Source: Corynespora cassiicola (Eukaryota > Ascomycota > Dothideomycetes > Pleosporales > Corynesporascaceae). From it: a stretch of DNA of 64,000 bases. This document shows positions 49,567 through 64,000 of this stretch, one piece after another; position 1 is the first letter of the stretch, and every line of letters starts with the position of its first letter. Position numbers and translations under genes: made by a program. Where the stretch lies: positions 620,001 through 684,000 of the forward strand of contig JAEUWY010000019.1 of NCBI GenBank assembly GCA_022059125.1. Direction: 5' to 3'. The notes under the pieces were generated by a model. That model saw only the letters and a program-made list of their open reading frames with translations, was not told the DNA's origin and searched no databases.

Positions 49567-49571
49567 TTTTA
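49567..49571. repeat. Target site duplication, left copy (tttta)
   Basis: The five bases tttta directly precede the left LTR and recur at 56383-56387 directly behind the right LTR. This is the normal length for Ty3/gypsy integration. Confidence 0.85.
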
Positions 49572-49941
49572 TGTTAAGGCTGTGCTACAGGCTATGAGCG
49601 AGGCTAGGGAGCAAGTAGCTGCTTGGGTTGATTCTCGGGGATAAGTACTGGTAGGGTCACGTGAGTGAAACGATGTGCGATATGCTGTACGGGTCTCCGT
49701 GTTGGCAGATAGAGCACGATAGGTTGATAGTCAATTCCAAACGATAGATTTGCTAACAAGGTGAACACAATTGTAGAGTACAATTGTGTGGACTATATAC
49801 ATGTGCCTGAGGCTTCTGCTCAGTACTGCTCAGTTGCTCAGTACTGCTGAGCGGACTGATCAACTGAGCACGTCACGTGACCAGCCATGGCGGTGCGACC
49901 CTGTCGGCCCCGTCATTGGCCCACGTTTGTGGCTCATAACA
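49572..49941 (-). repeat. 3' LTR of the intact retrotransposon (370 bp)
   Basis: It begins TGTTAAGG and ends CATAACA on the plus strand, so the 5' TG and 3' CA rule is met on both strands. It matches 56013-56382 with no visible difference. It contains TATATA at 49794-49799, readable on both strands, and a near-perfect palindrome at 49765-49789. On the plus strand it lies directly upstream of the opposite-strand ORF and could drive it. Confidence 0.95.
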
Positions 49942-49954
49942 CTATCCCCCCTCT
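49942..49954 (-). promoter_or_regulatory. Polypurine tract (plus-strand primer)
   Basis: On the minus strand the sequence AGAGGGGGGATAG directly abuts the 3' LTR, as expected of the primer for second-strand synthesis. Confidence 0.8.
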
Positions 49955-49982
49955 AGCCTAGCTCGGTCCTCTGAGCTAACAT

Positions 49983-50594
49983 ATGACGCGCGGGTTTCCC
50001 TCGTTGCTGCCCACTTTCGCAACGATGCCTAAAACACCAACAGTCTCCAGTACCGTCCGCCGTCATCGCCTAGCTGATTTTGTCGAGGCCGTAGGAGAAG
50101 TCATGGTTCAAAAGTGTTCGACTTGCGTAAAGCATAAACGAGTGTGTAAGGTGCATGTTCGTTCCGGAAAGTGCAGTGAGTGTCTGCATCGCGGGCAGCG
50201 GTGCAACATTCGCGTTACTCAGTCCGAGTTCCAGCGTCTTGCTAAGGAGAAAGAGAAATTGCGACAACAGATAAAGGAGTCGCGCGAAGCGCAGGATGCG
50301 GCTGTGAAAGCGCATGAAAAGGCCTTGGAGGACTTGCAGGTGGCGAGAGCCAAAGAAGAGCGGCTTCGTCAACAGATGGACTTGCTCGATCGTCGTGCGG
50401 AGGAGGCCATATCGGTGGAGGAACGAGACCTGGAGGAGCAAGAGCAGCGGGAACGCGAGGCGTTGTCCGAAGTTCTTACTTTCGACGGTCCTTCCGAGGG
50501 TCTTGCTCTTAACCTTTCTCCGAGCACTTGGAGCGCTATCGAGGGTTTTCCCGACAACTTCTGGGAAGTACCCGTGTCGTCCGCTGGTCCCTAA
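49983..50594 (+). CDS. Opposite-strand ORF of the retrotransposon: Zn2Cys6-type coiled-coil protein
   Basis: 203 residues, or 189 from the second Met (50025, MPKTPTVSS), encoded on the strand opposite to gag-pol. Cysteines at 45, 48, 55, 64, 67 and 74 give C-x2-C-x6-C-x8-C-x2-C-x6-C, which fits the fungal Zn2Cys6 (Gal4-type) cluster in every spacing. Lys/Arg residues sit between Cys 2 and 3, as in DNA-binding members. A charged coiled coil covers residues 81-160 (many Glu, Lys, Arg, with Leu/Ala heptads). The tail is acidic and hydrophobic ([10 protein letters not shown]). Only 59 bp overlap the end of pol, so it is not a shadow frame. It starts 42-84 bp behind the LTR. Whether it is translated, and its role, are unknown; DNA binding or structural use are both possible. 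Confidence 0.75.
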
Positions 50595-53500
50595 GTGTTT
50601 GGTCGTGTACGATGTGTCGCCTTTCTTCGGGTATGTTTTCTTTGATTACCCCTGTGTAGTAGTGGAGGTGATTTCGTCTTCGGCTTTCCTTGAGTAGTCG
50701 CTGACAGTTCTTCAGGTTTCGTTCTGGTTCCCAAGTGTTTTCCGAATCTGGGTATCCTTTCCATTTGACCAACCATTCCTGTGCGAAGTGGTTGTCGCGG
50801 AATTCGTCTCGTCCTATCTCGCGGTAGCCTACTAGCGCTTCTACTTCGAATTCGACTTCTTCTTCCGTCTCGTAATGGAAGTGTTCTTGGACTGGTGTTT
50901 CGGCGTCGGCAGGTTCCAATAGTGACACATGGAACACTGGGTGTATTCTAGCATTGGCAGGGAGTTGGAGTTTATAGTTGACTGGTCCCTTTCGTTCTAG
51001 AATCAAAAATGGTCCGACCTTGACGTGATCCAATTTCTTGCTTGGTCGTGTCGTTCGAAGATTTTTCGTGAGAAGATACACTTTATCCCCCCTCTTTAGC
51101 TGAGGTGCCATTTTTCGTTTCTGGTTGACATAAGAAATGGTCTTGCGTTGTGCTGTCTCGATATTCTTTCGTAATTGTTCGTGAAGTTCTCGTAATTCTC
51201 CCGATTTGTCCATTGCTTGACTTGCAACTGGCTTGATTCGTTCTTCCTTAATCCTTGGTAATAGGAGATTTGGGTGTGTCCCGTGTAATGCATAATAAGG
51301 AGATTGCTTCGTCGTTACTGATTCTCTGTTGTTGAATGCGAGTTGTGCCATGGGTAGTAGTGATACCCAATTATTTTGTTTTTGGTTGCTATACATCCGT
51401 AGGTATGTTTTCATGGTCTGGTTTGTTCTTTCTGTTTGACCGTCTGTCTGTGGATGGTATGCCGTTGATAATTTTCTTTTAATTCCGATGGCTGACATCA
51501 GTGTCGTCCAGTAGTTTGATGTGAAGAGTTTGTCTCTGTCGCTGATGATTGATTGAGGCAATCCGTGATACCTAACTACGCGATCCAGAATAACCTGTGC
51601 TAGTTCCGGCGCAGTGTAGTTGTCTCTAAATGGAATCATTTCTGCGTATTTCGTGAATCTGTCCACAACCACTAGGATGGCATTGTAGGGTACTCTGGAA
51701 ACCGGGTCGTGAGACGTTGGTAATCCGGTGACAAAGTCCATAGCAATGTCTGTCCATGGTTTGTCTGGTATTTCTACAGCTTGTAGTTCTCCATATTGAG
51801 CGTGTGTACTGTGCTTGTTCTTTTGACATGTTGTGCATTTCTTGATGAACTTCGCTACTTTGTCTTTCAATCCAGGGATGTCGTACGTTCGTTGTATCAG
51901 TTTGATCGTTTGTTCGACACCTGGGTGTCCGTGCAACGGATCTTCGTGATACTGCTGGATGATGGTTTGATGAAGTTCTTCTGGTACTTGTTGATGTACT
52001 GTCATGATAAGATTGATGCTGCGTGCTGGCCCTAAAGTGCCGTCTGGCGCTTGCTTGAGGATAGCAGCTTCGTTCGTTGACTTGGTTCCTGCGATGTCCG
52101 TCCTTCGACTCAGAGCATCTGCTCTTCCATTTTCTTTGCCTGGTGTGTAGACAATCTTGAATTTGTACTGTCCTAGTTCTTCACTCCATCTGGTATGTCG
52201 TCGGTCTAATGGTTTGGTTGTCGTGAATGTCATTAGATTCTTGTGGTCCGAGTATACCGTGAGTTCTGAACAGCTTTCTGCGTAGATTCTCCAATGCTTG
52301 AGAGAGTCTATGATGGCAAGTAATTCCTTGTCGTGAACATCGTAGTTTTCTTCAGCTCCGCTGAACTTTCTCGAATAGTAGGCAATCGGGTGCCATTTGC
52401 CTTCTTTTTCTTGACTGATGCATGCTCCCATTGCTAGGTCTGATGCGTCTGTTTCCATGCGTAAGGGTTTTCCACTGGTGAAAGATATGAGAACCGGTGG
52501 TGATATGCTTGCTTCTTTGAGTGTCTCAAAGGCTTGTTGTTGGTCTGTATCCCACTTAAATGGTACATCTTTTCTTGTTAATTTGGTGAGTGGTAGTGCC
52601 TTTTCTGAGTAGTGATCGATGAACTGCCTGTTGAAGTTGCAGAATCCTAAGAAGGATTGTATGTCCTTGACGTTCTTTGGCGTAGGCCAGTTCTTGACTA
52701 CTTCAATTTTCTTTGGACTGATCTTGACTCCGTGTCTTCCCACAATGTGTCCTAAGAATTCAACTTCTTCTTTGTGGAATTCACATTTCTCTGGTTTGAG
52801 TCGTAGTCCTGCTTTTCCCAAACATTCCAGTACTGTTCGTACGTGCTGGACGTGTTCCTTGAGGTCCTTGGAAAAGACTAGGATGTCATCTAGGTATGCG
52901 ATGACGAATATGTCTAGGTGTGCTCTCAACACGTTGTTGATGAGTGCCTGACATGTCGCAGGTGCGTTGGTAAGACCGAATGGCATTACAAGATATTCAT
53001 AGTGCCCATACCGCGTCCGGAATGCCGTCTTCCATTCTTCACCTTTCTTCATGCGTATCAAGTTGTACGCGCCTCGGAGATCTAAGGCTGTAAATATCTG
53101 TGCTCCAGATAGCCTATCTCTGAGCTCTTGAATGTTCGGTAGTGGATATCTGTTCTTGATCGTGATGTTGTTGAGTTTCCTAAAATCCACACATAACCGT
53201 AGGGATCCATCTTTCTTGGGAACAAAGATGATCGGGTATCCCGCCTCTGACGTTGATTCGCGTATGAATCCTTTCTTGAGGTTTTCATCGAGGTATGCTC
53301 GTAACGATACGAGTTCTTTTTCCGTTAGACTGTAGATGGGCTCGAAAGTCGGATGCTTTCCTTCCTGAAGGGCTATTTCGCAGTCCCAGGGCTGATGCTT
53401 AGGTAACGCTCTGTCGTCTACCTCTTCTCGAAAGAGTGGTTCCCATTTGCTGTACTCTTCGGGGATTACAGGAGTTGCGCGAGTTGTCTCCAAATCTCTC

Positions 53501-54063
53501 ACTTCTTTGTCCGGTGGCTCCTTGTCGGATCTGGTGGAGTCGACCTTTCTTCTTGAAAGCGTCTTAGTCGATCCCTTGCTGCCTATGTTATTCAGCGTGA
53601 TCTCATCTACCATCGAACGCTGCCGATGCGTAGGTCCCGATGCGATGGCGCACTCGCATCCTATGAACGAAAGCTTCTTTTTCGCCCAGTCGATATATGG
53701 GTTATGCTTTCTGAACCATGGAAGTCCTAAAATGACGTCGTGGATGGCCGTGCCCATGATGTCGAAGGAGATCTCTTCCTGGTGTCCCTGGATGTCCATG
53801 ATGGTCGTGGCTTCTTGATCCATCAATGCTTTTCCTGGCATCTTCCTTCCAGTTGCCGTGTGGAGGAAATAGGGTCGCTCGTGGGCATGCGTTCTTGCCT
53901 TACTACGCTTTACAGCCTGCTGTGAAAGGTAGTTGCGCTGAGCCCCTGTGTCTAATAATGCCTTCATCCAGTATCCATTAAGCTTGACAGGTAGCTTGAC
54001 TAAGTTCTCTGAGTTGGTAGCGCACAATGCCTTGGGTCGATCCCAGGCGCTAAGTGCTGTCCT
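50536..54063 (-). CDS. pol: pol: protease, reverse transcriptase, RNase H, integrase, chromodomain
   Basis: 1175 codons in the -1 frame relative to gag, entered at the slippery site, so no own start codon is needed (the first internal ATG-like start is a TTG at 54027). In order: aspartic protease (LLDTGAQ, about 36 codons after entry); RT with [23 protein letters not shown] and YLDDILVFS; RNase H with [11 protein letters not shown] and HDKELLAI; an HHCC integrase N-domain ending CTTCQKNK; the integrase core with [14 protein letters not shown] and [12 protein letters not shown]. The C-terminal chromodomain reads [18 protein letters not shown] (about 50.70-50.85 kb). Chromodomains of this kind direct integration to heterochromatin, which fits the site. 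All catalytic motifs look intact. Confidence 0.95.
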
Positions 54064-55994
54064 AAAAAAGACTCGTTGCTGAATCCATACAAGCGTTTCT
54101 CATTCCAGTGACGTTCGCAATCATCGTGTAAGCATGTTTGCCAGAGATCTTGCGTACATCTCCTGTTGACTAGCATGTTCGTTGCGAGTTCTTCAGCTTC
54201 GTTCATCCCGGGGAAATGTTGTGATTGTCGTTTGTCCCATAGGTGAGTGTCGCATACATGTGTCTCGCAGTCGAACCATTGATGTTTGCATTCGCGTGGT
54301 TTGGATGGAAACCAGTTTGCGGCCATCTTGTCCGAGTAGTGGATTTGACATTGGTCTTCTCGACAAGAGGTCCATGAGTAAGTTACGTGTTTTGGATTCC
54401 TTGGGTCTAGGTAGTATTGCAGTTCTTGCGTGTTTCGGCTTCGTAGAGGACTTGGAACCGTGTTTGGTTCGCTGTCAGGGTCTGGTAAAACTCCCAGTTT
54501 GATTCCTGAATCTGGTTGATTGACTCGTTCCCATGCCTTGGAACTGCGTCGTTGTCGGCGTTCCTCTGGGTCTTGATTTTCTTTGTCTGAGTCATTGTGC
54601 CTCTTTGTCCGTTTGCGCGTTACAGGTGATTCTTCCCGCCATGCGGGCGTTCTTGTCGAATCTCTCCTGTGTTCCTTAAGAGCTTCGGCCAATTCTTGTA
54701 TTTCTTCGAGGTCCTTGTTCATCCTGAATCGTGCGAGTTCGGGTGGCGTGCTGCCATCGCTGTTTCTTTCGAACTCGTAACTGGCGTCGCTTAGATAGTC
54801 TTCGTGATCGTGTGCTTCGCGAAAGGCTTCTTCTTCCTCGGGGCTAGGTCCTTCAAATTTGACTTCTTTAAGGATGCTCCTAGGCTCCGTTTGAGTGCCT
54901 TTGTCTTGATACTGAACACAATCGAAGAATCCCTCCGTTTCTCCATGTCGCAGTGGTTCGCTGTCGCAGATGAATCCCGTTTTCTGGAATCTGTCTACGA
55001 CGACTTTCCATTCATCGTCTGCGTCGGATTCGTCATCCGGAGTGGTTTGCAATACATTTAGCTGTCGAACGACCTTGTTCTTTGATCGACAGTCTCTTGC
55101 GATGTGGCCTGTCTTTCCACACGCGTAGCAAGTTATAGCCTTGCCTTTAGGCTTGTCGTTTCTCTTTTTGTTACCTCCTCGTCCCGCTTCCTGGATATTA
55201 CCGAGGACCATTGGTTCGTCACCATAGGTGTCACGAGTGAGATGCGTTACCTTGCGTTCAACTCGTTTACCGGTGTTGGCGTTGTAGTACCCTTTGCCAT
55301 AGCTTGGTTTGGTACGTTGTCGGTATCGTGGGTTTTGGTCCTGGCGTAATTCCATACGCAGTTCGTACAGTTTCTGATCGATGTCGATGGACTCATTTAT
55401 AAGTTGTTCAAGCGTGTCGAGCTGAGCTCCAGAACGCATGAGTTCTTCTTTGACGTTGGGTTTGAGTCCTTGGCGGTACATCGTCATAAGTGCCTTGTCA
55501 TCCCATTCCGTGAGGATCGACAGTTGCTGAAATTCGTTGGCGTAGTCAGCAGCTGAAGCCCGTTGTTTGAGATGTTGGATGTCTCGTCCGGCAATTGTAT
55601 CCTTGTTGGCGATTCCGAAGACTTGTTTGATCTTCTCCTTGAATTCATCGAAATCCTCCATCCATTCGTTGACGTCGTCGTTGGCTTCGCCGTCCTTGTA
55701 CTTGATGAGAGCTGGTTTGATCCATTGAAGTGCTTTGCCTCTCATGTACGTGGCTGCGAACATGACGCGTTTCTTTTCCTTAACGTTTCCACCTTGGAAG
55801 TCGAAGAACAAGTCGAGCTGCAAGAGCCAGTCTTCGAGCTTGCTTCGTTCTCCATGGTAGAGGTCAGGTGTTGCTACTTTGATAGAATTGTTGTCTGCCG
55901 TGTTAGGTTGTACGATTGCACCAGTAGTGGCCTTAGCACCAACAGTGCTACTGGTTGGGGTTGAGGGTGCGCGTGATCCTGAAGTGGTACTCAT
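54000..55994 (-). CDS. gag: gag: capsid/nucleocapsid with extra Cys/His repeats
   Basis: 664 residues. A retrotransposon Gag domain ([15 protein letters not shown] to about residue 210) is followed by a CCHC zinc knuckle, [14 protein letters not shown], at residue 289. The remaining 360 residues are unusually long for a gypsy Gag, with acidic and basic low-complexity parts. Near the end come three C-x4-C-x2-H-x3-K repeats, at residues 544-556, 576-588 and 621-633; the last two have one more Cys 7-8 residues upstream (569, 613). The start at 55994 lies 18 bp after the LTR. The last 21 codons overlap pol in the -1 frame. Confidence 0.93.
54017..54069 (-). promoter_or_regulatory. -1 ribosomal frameshift site: T TTT TTA heptamer and hairpin
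   Basis: The heptamer at 54069-54063 is in the exact X XXY YYZ phase of the gag frame (codons end T, TTT, TTA). The -1 frame continues as pol without a stop. Ten bases behind it, TAGCGC can pair with GCGCTA. An inner stem (CCT/AGG and GGG/CCC) closes a five-base loop ATCGA. The heptamer is the one used by HIV-1. The whole signal lies before the gag stop at 54000-54002. Confidence 0.8.
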
Positions 55995-56012: not shown

Positions 56013-56382
56013 TGTTAAGGCTGTGCTACAGGCTATGAGCGAGGCTAGGGAGCAAGTAGCTGCTTGGGTTGATTCTCGGGGATAAGTACTGGTAGGGTCA
56101 CGTGAGTGAAACGATGTGCGATATGCTGTACGGGTCTCCGTGTTGGCAGATAGAGCACGATAGGTTGATAGTCAATTCCAAACGATAGATTTGCTAACAA
56201 GGTGAACACAATTGTAGAGTACAATTGTGTGGACTATATACATGTGCCTGAGGCTTCTGCTCAGTACTGCTCAGTTGCTCAGTACTGCTGAGCGGACTGA
56301 TCAACTGAGCACGTCACGTGACCAGCCATGGCGGTGCGACCCTGTCGGCCCCGTCATTGGCCCACGTTTGTGGCTCATAACA
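56013..56382 (-). repeat. 5' LTR and promoter of the intact retrotransposon (370 bp)
   Basis: It matches the left LTR base for base as far as I could compare. The minus-strand TATATA at 56240-56235 is followed by the palindrome at 56206-56230 and the probable transcription start. A target duplication tttta follows at 56383-56387. Confidence 0.95.
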
Positions 56383-56387
56383 TTTTA

Positions 56388-62867: not shown

Positions 62868-64000
62868 TTAAGCTACCTGTTAAGCTTAATAAATACTAAA
62901 TAAAGGTATTATTAGATATAGAGGCTTAGCGTAACTACTTTTTACAGCAGGCTGTAAAGCGTAGTAAAGCAAAAACGCATATCTACAAGCGACTCTATTT
63001 CCTCTATACAGTAACTAGAAAGAAGATACTAGAAAAAGTATTAATAGATTAAGAAGCTACAACTATTATAGACATCCAGAGACACTAGAAAGAGATTTTT
63101 TTTAACATTATAGACACGGCTATCTACAACGTTATTTTAGAACTTCTATAGTTCAGAAAGCACAACCTATATATTAATTAGGCAAGAAAGAAGCTTTCGT
63201 TTATAGGATGTAATTGCGCTATTATATTAGAACCTACGCATTAGCAGCGTTTAATAATAAATAAAATTACGCTAAATAACATAGACAGCAAAAGATTAAA
63301 TAAAACGCTTTTAAAAAAAAAGGTCAACTCTGCTAAATCTAATAAAAAGCTACTAAATAAAAAAGTAAAAGTTTTAGAGATAACTCGCGCAACTTCTAAA
63401 ATCCCTAAAAAGTACAGTAAATAGAAACTACTCTTTTAAGAAGAGGTAGACAACAAAACGTTATCTAAGTATTAGCCCTAGAACTGCGAAATAGCTCTTT
63501 AGAAAAAAAAGCATCTAACTTTTAAGCCTATTTATAGTTTATTAGAAAAAAAACTTGTAGCGTTACGAGCATACTTTAACAAAAACCTTAAAAAAGAATT
63601 TATACGCGAATTAACGTCAGAGGCGGGATACCTAATTATTTTTGTTTTTAAGAAAGATAGATCCCTACGGTTATATATAGATTTTAGGAAACTTAATAAC
63701 ATTATAATTAAAAACAGATATCTACTACCAAACATTTAAAAGCTTAGAGATAAGCTATTTAAAGTACAGATATTTACAGCTTTAGATCTCTAAGGCGCGT
63801 ACAACTTAATACGCATAAAAAAAGGTAAAAAATAGAAAACAGCATTCCGGACGCGGTATAGACATTATAAATATCTTATAATACTATTCAGTTTTACTAA
63901 CACACCTACAATATATTAGGCACTTATTAACAACGTGTTAAGAGCACACCTAAACATATTCGTCATCGCATACCTAGATAATATTTTAGTCTTTTCTAAA
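62804..64000 (+). pseudogene. pol: pol pseudogene of relic B (protease to RT, cut by the window edge)
   Basis: The protease and RT parts correspond to the intact pol, with RIP-type stops. A minus-strand 67-codon open frame at 63532-63735 is only the shadow of the RT palm region and is not a gene. Confidence 0.85.

Follow-up and report, generated by a model that had tools for sequence, protein, structure and literature searches.

An antisense Zn2Cys6-type gene that appears to be exchanged together with its adjoining U3 in a fungal chromovirus

Results

A chromodomain Ty3/Gypsy element with an antisense gene

The window—the whole 64,000-nucleotide stretch of Corynespora cassiicola DNA analysed here—contains a complete chromodomain Ty3/Gypsy element of 6,811 bp, lying on the minus strand and bounded by identical LTRs. 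The element has the gag gene, PR-RT-RH-IN order, chromodomain and LTRs with a 5-bp target-site duplication (TSD) expected of a Ty3/Gypsy chromovirus and carries in addition an ORF antisense to gag and pol. Its features are as follows.

49567..49571 (no strand): TSD, TTTTA; other copy at 56383-56387
49572..49941 (minus): 3′ LTR, TGTTA...TAACA, 370 bp, identical to 56013-56382
49794..49799 (no strand): palindromic TATATA, a candidate TATA box, where constant DNA meets variable DNA
49800..49941 (minus): variable stretch of U3 upstream of the TATA box, belonging to the cassette
49818..49869 (no strand): five CTGAGC/GCTCAG sixmers in U3, starting at 49818, 49828, 49836, 49847 and 49864
49800..50838 (no strand): variable segment in comparison with type C; compared with type D, its edge on the pol side lies at 50590
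49942..49954 (minus): polypurine tract adjoining the 3′ LTR, sequence identified by eye
49983..50594 (plus): antisense ORF, 203 aa
50115..50204 (plus): Zn2Cys6-type cluster, residues 45-74
50220..50477 (plus): long helix in the predicted structure, residues 80-165, a probable coiled coil that may dimerise
50478..50591 (plus): tail bearing a conserved LSPxTW motif, a candidate region for activation or partner binding
50536..54027 (minus): pol, encoding protease, RT, RNase H, integrase and chromodomain
50686..50850 (minus): chromodomain at the pol C terminus; types B, C and E differ here from type A
54000..55994 (minus): gag, with Ty3-type capsid and zinc knuckle
56013..56382 (minus): 5′ LTR, 370 bp, identical to 49572-49941

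The gag and pol ORFs overlap by 28 bp (54000-54027) but do not share a frame, and TTG is the first codon of the listed pol ORF, a layout suggestive of programmed frameshifting. In the C-terminal part of Gag (54003-54500, minus strand), the zinc knuckle is followed by three spaced C-x4-C-x2-H motifs, each succeeded by x2-[DE]-K and possibly forming a further zinc-binding repeat. The 5′ LTR (56013-56382) contains the identical palindromic TATA, from which antisense transcripts would enter flanking host DNA.

A sequence-only reading of this DNA had proposed a 203-aa ORF at 49983-50594 on the plus strand; this is borne out and the ORF is real and protein-coding. It had been placed between the polypurine tract and the pol end. 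It lies mostly but not wholly between pol and the 3′ LTR: it begins 41 bp from the 3′ LTR and ends 59 bp inside the pol end. No plus-strand ATG ORF of at least 203 aa arose in 5,000 first-order shuffles of 49942-50594, although such a test on 653 bp is harsh, leaving little room for an ORF of this length, and the homologues described below are stronger evidence. The second ATG (50025, MPK...) is aligned with the first residue of most displayed homologues and is probably the conserved start. TATATA at 49794-49799 does lie 226-231 bp before that ATG, as claimed, and is a candidate TATA box common to gag-pol (in the 5′ LTR) and the antisense gene (in the 3′ LTR).

Zn2Cys6 clusters follow the pattern C-x2-C-x6-C-x5-12-C-x2-C-x6-8-C. 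The window protein has this six-cysteine pattern, and its cysteines at residues 45-48-55-64-67-74 (C-x2-C-x6-C-x8-C-x2-C-x6-C) agree with the Gal4-type spacing previously read from the ORF. It gave no match above cut-off to Pfam PF00172, to which weak matches occurred in 14 of 45 members of a second family described below (best E 0.0056), and by its sequence we class it as Zn2Cys6-type, not as a PF00172 member.

AF2 produced a model of the antisense protein with a mean pLDDT of 84.8, confident for the cluster-plus-helix part, in which the zinc cluster is followed by an 86-residue helix (residues 80-165) that is probably a dimerising coiled coil. The two best PDB rows from Foldseek were both Pho7 (E 0.24 and 0.45), while VIA-align placed residues 43-77 on chain 1cld at 1.7 Å over 33 residues; in comparisons of the cluster fold, rows for Pho7, HAP1, PUT3 and 1cld all had low scores. 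Acidic residues prevail in the last 58 positions, 14 D/E to three R, with K absent; W, F and L also occur there.

Homologues and copies in the host genome

Two database searches recovered 163 and 244 homologues of the antisense protein at E ≤ 1e-3. Among the matches listed, the exact Zn2Cys6 spacing of the six cysteines was present in 128 of 132 proteins of ≥150 aa (query included), and an SPxxW terminus in 113 of 132 members of this first family and 72 of 79 of the second. Contigs of about 6-7.5 kb carry many of the homologues, a size no more than compatible with whole elements. Names attached to regions outside the zinc cluster (Sec8, GreA-type factors, syncytin), like scattered weak Pfam names, were set aside as coiled-coil or chance matches. 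Searches of viral_contigs and genome_contigs found no DNA relatives of the antisense gene, so a codon test against other species was precluded.

The host genome (44.35 Mb, 23 contigs) holds 19 copies of the antisense ORF at 100% identity, plus relics with stops; the opposite-strand ORF is thus intact and identical in 19 copies and RIP-decayed in the others. Six further intact elements matched the window copy over 6,811 bp, being identical to it save for a single mismatch in one. All six lie in AT-rich DNA (flank GC 0.13-0.23), and the flanks of the window copy are, by eye, also AT-rich.

From 362 candidates, we scored 91 pol matches. Stops were found in 72, and the 19 without stops were all of the window's type, designated type A. 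An antisense-ORF match lay ≤4.5 kb downstream of 45 of the 91; in 43 of these 45 it was antisense, mostly 1.4 or 1.8 kb away, and the other two were same-strand neighbours. Stop-free type-A copies sit alongside RIP-decayed copies of types A-E, suggesting either that the element burst recently, once RIP had weakened, or that it is newly arrived. One RIP-decayed pol relic with the same backbone starts near the right end of the window (63467-64000+; G000:C19:683467-684867), and its 3′ end (L040) is a type-B cassette.

For type-A relics, we used 12 of 14 fetched loci, leaving out L010 and L018 as apparent duplicates of L009 and L017. Compared with the intact copy over 544-552 bp of the antisense gene, eight of the 12 had no transversions (in 549-552 bp) and the rest one or two. 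Being nearly transition-only, these relics are RIP products uninformative on selection, and a selection test on them was discarded as useless.

Five cassette types on one backbone

Among the 46 pol matches lacking a match to the window ORF, 20 3′ ends were fetched. Five were of type B (L032, L033, L038, L040, L047), thirteen of type C (L031, L034-L037, L039, L041-L043, L045, L046, L048, L049; L043 and L045 interrupted or partial in the fetched piece), one of type D (L044) and one of type E (L050). Since RIP makes transitions only, older divergence was measured by transversions, tabulated for six loci of types B-E against the intact type-A element. Over pol (52000-50900) there were one to four transversions in about 1.12-1.17 kb and over TATA-R-U5 (49572-49799 of the LTR) zero to two in 227 bp, whereas the antisense gene and U3 differed by 24-37 transversions per 100 aligned bases, that is, with no clear DNA similarity. 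The type-A relics, with zero to two transversions over the antisense gene, serve as a control and argue that the cassette is not simply fast-mutating. At least five versions (A-E) of one segment thus occur on a common backbone.

Seed-and-extend blocks on the 20 loci located the edges of this segment. Where the LTR was found in the piece, the LTR-side edge fell at 49800 (C), 49804 (D, E) or 49808 (B), within about 9 bp of the TATA. The pol-side edge ran from 50590 to about 50850 overall: at 50838 in type C, at 50590 in type D and more gradual, down to 50611, in types B and E. The chromodomain accordingly counts among the differences in B, C and E, though not in D. On the 5′ side, four elements had no transversions in 93-101 bp of LTR and three to ten in 762-856 bp spanning the LTR end and gag start, so the backbone there is close, yet has seen some change. 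The 5′ and 3′ LTRs of those four elements differed by zero or one transversion over 435-445 bp.

The antisense gene and U3 are co-inherited. We counted rows with ≥400 bp of cassette query, leaving aside LTR-only and shorter ones and matches of one type to another. The U3 end of the row's own type was reached by at least 30 of 30 for type A, 8 of 9 for B, 37 of 41 for C, 3 of 3 for D and 25 of 26 for E, whose query stops about 60 bp short of the TATA; the six remaining rows were partial matches. Breakpoints inside cassettes are in any case not expected, because the DNA of different cassettes is not clearly similar. Next to seven type-C cassettes, the match to the pol end of the B query continues beyond the type-C edge (in five as far as query position 582-715, in two only to 497-520), which indicates that the chromodomain side recombined separately. 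Between copies that are otherwise nearly identical, the antisense gene and its adjoining promoter appear to have been exchanged as one unit.

A second zinc-cluster family and its codon-position signal

Read through RIP stops, the antisense stretches of types B and C yield a Cys cluster and a charged helix. A B+C profile (A2, 8 rows) found 252 database proteins at E ≤ 1e-3, 120 of them among the matches listed; the six cysteines were invariant in 45 of 45 aligned members and strictly spaced in 72 of 79 proteins of ≥150 aa among the matches listed. Judged by these alignments, types B and C encode a second conserved Zn2Cys6 family, homologous to the first by profile comparison (hhalign probability 98.1, E 1.1e-13). 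In any single frame, the relics themselves retain no more than four of the six cysteines in type B and five in type C, and in all 11 type-C copies printed the first cysteine position is Y, which RIP could have caused. Types D and E gave weak matches to the first-family profile (E 1.2e-7 and 6.2e-5). Named members of both families occur in Sporormia fimetaria and in Cercospora kikuchii.

Between the sister cassettes B and C, transversions by antisense codon position numbered 19, 14 and 35 at 145, 145 and 146 sites of the ORF span common to both (Fisher p 6.6e-4), and 27, 22 and 47 over a wider region (p 1.0e-3), a third-position excess. One sense frame has identical third positions and stop counts do not separate it from the antisense frame; we adopt the antisense reading because the database family was found with the antisense frame, the frame used for the search.

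Short repeats in U3

Five CTGAGC/GCTCAG sixmers lie within 52 bp of the type-A U3, a number reached in none of 500 shuffles, and a sixth at 49971 starts 12 bp before the first ATG of the antisense ORF. Elsewhere, there are three in gag-pol (about 6 kb) and 29 in the 57,189 bp of the window outside the element. In the type-B U3, a GCTTA repeat reached significance in each of the two copies tested. Shuffle tests found no significant U3 repeat in types C and D, and the repeat in type E was not significant (reached in 38 of 500 shuffles). The short U3 repeats of types A and B, two of the five types, are only candidate targets of the protein.

Discussion

That the element encodes a Zn2Cys6-type coiled-coil protein, as first proposed from the letters of the window, is well supported by 19 copies with an identical ORF, hundreds of homologues, a confident model and a codon-position signal. 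We see about an even chance that it is an accessory gene of a fungal chromovirus whose product regulates the element through its own U3 and is exchanged with that U3 as one cassette. Reverse reading of the 3′ LTR, starting at the shared TATA, would yield the antisense protein, which would dimerise, bind its own U3 and raise gag-pol transcription or lift silencing, a role as activator or anti-silencer being more likely than one as repressor. Gene and U3 would then form one specificity cassette, repeatedly exchanged on a constant replication backbone by template switching during reverse transcription. Such switching would move the 3′ end (pol end, antisense gene and U3 up to R) as one piece, and one-piece transfer fits the observed edges. 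Regulation of the element's own LTR gains plausibility because gene and U3 vary together and U3 repeats are significant in two of five types; each protein version may recognise its own promoter, and gene and U3, seen here to be co-inherited, may be co-adapted. The protein might also, as the sequence-only reading suggested, silence competitors or guide integration.

As the main rival, the same protein and target could instead serve repression, limiting copy number and blocking elements with the same U3 in a form of superinfection immunity from which new cassettes escape like heteroimmune phages. At least five cassettes on one backbone would suit this, as would the finding that type A accounts for every one of the 19 stop-free pol matches and that stops occur in 72 of the 91 scored; however, the acidic tail with its W, F and L residues is more like an activation region and a burst of 19 intact copies is unlike tight self-limitation, so that we think repression unlikely. 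There is a slim chance that the protein, with the variable chromodomain, chooses integration sites or binds chromatin while U3 differences hitch-hike. Types B, C and E do have a chromodomain different from that of type A, and the intact copies examined sit in AT-rich DNA, but type D combines a type-A-like chromodomain with another antisense gene and U3, and the seven type-C cassettes with a non-C pol end (that of B in five) show chromodomain and antisense gene to be separable.

Zn2Cys6 is a fungal transcription-factor domain, which invites the explanation that a host transcription-factor gene was captured as a passenger. This is barely credible when length and motifs are conserved in two large families, both with members in S. 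fimetaria and C. kikuchii, and such a gene occurs in several cassette types of one genome. It is also very improbable that the antisense transcript itself is what matters, through small RNA or interference with gag-pol, the protein being secondary: the arrangement is antisense and the accessible text of a review of plant antisense ORFs (aORFs) raises such a role (PMC7264820), but conservation at protein level, hundreds of homologues with conserved cysteines and the third-position excess between B and C point to the protein.

A further and more tentative reading, somewhat doubtful, is that cassettes of Zn2Cys6 regulator plus matching U3, swapped whole, divide one element into classes that do not cross-regulate, the two regulator families being a long-lived polymorphism like phage immunity regions. 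The presence of two deeply diverged families together in this genome and in S. fimetaria and C. kikuchii would amount to such a polymorphism. LTR retrotransposons would then encode their own sequence-specific regulator, one that moves along with its promoter; how such elements evade host silencing or limit one another would become testable, and the cassettes would offer Zn2Cys6-type proteins and promoters as naturally occurring candidates for matched pairs.

In the open-licence literature on fungal retrotransposon antisense genes, Zn2Cys6 proteins and U3 modules, we found no report of regulator-plus-U3 exchange. Antisense accessory genes are already known; as far as these searches show, what is new is that a regulator gene and its U3 are joined in a single cassette that is exchanged. 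HBZ of HTLV-1 is an antisense gene driven from the 3′ LTR that regulates the provirus. We liken the window gene to it as an antisense gene with proposed 3′ LTR expression, although HBZ encodes a bZIP protein and belongs to a retrovirus. The available part of one review notes that the 3′ LTR of HTLV has an antisense promoter (PMC7264820). In plants, the aORFs of Retand, Grande and RIRE2 are, in the accessible portions of the sources, likewise antisense and between pol and the 3′ LTR, with DNA binding predicted for the Retand aORF and a nuclear location reported for that of Grande (PMC11963269, PMC7264820). They share this position with the window gene but belong to plant elements; Retand, as described there, is of a non-chromovirus lineage, and its aORF mostly has a TRP28 domain, not Zn2Cys6.

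Tnt1 is a Copia element. In Solanaceae, according to the passages available, its U3 has undergone modular diversification, the RNase H region being more constant (PMC1838419). A U3 module thus varies over a more constant rest there as here, but those passages mention no linked regulator gene for Tnt1. VANDAL elements are DNA transposons, and their VANC protein is unrelated to ours. The accessible accounts of VANC anti-silencing in Arabidopsis describe sequence-specific action on noncoding target repeats that differ between related elements (PMC5735166, PMC10398659). Both systems have an element-encoded protein; the noncoding target repeats of VANC have candidate counterparts here in the U3 repeats of two of the five types. 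For VANC those accounts show binding, whereas for the window protein we propose it.

The brtn gene of Boty-like elements was reportedly described by Zhao et al. in 2011. The earlier statement that chromoviruses have only untranslated sequence between pol and the 3′ LTR was too strong, since the available text of three papers places this antisense gene there in Boty-like chromodomain Gypsy elements of Botrytis cinerea (PMC7264820, PMC8365987, PMC4227169). That text mentions no cassette exchange with U3 for brtn, unlike the situation here. In arrangement the two are alike: both brtn and the window gene are additional antisense genes, placed between pol and the 3′ LTR of a fungal Ty3/Gypsy element with a chromodomain.
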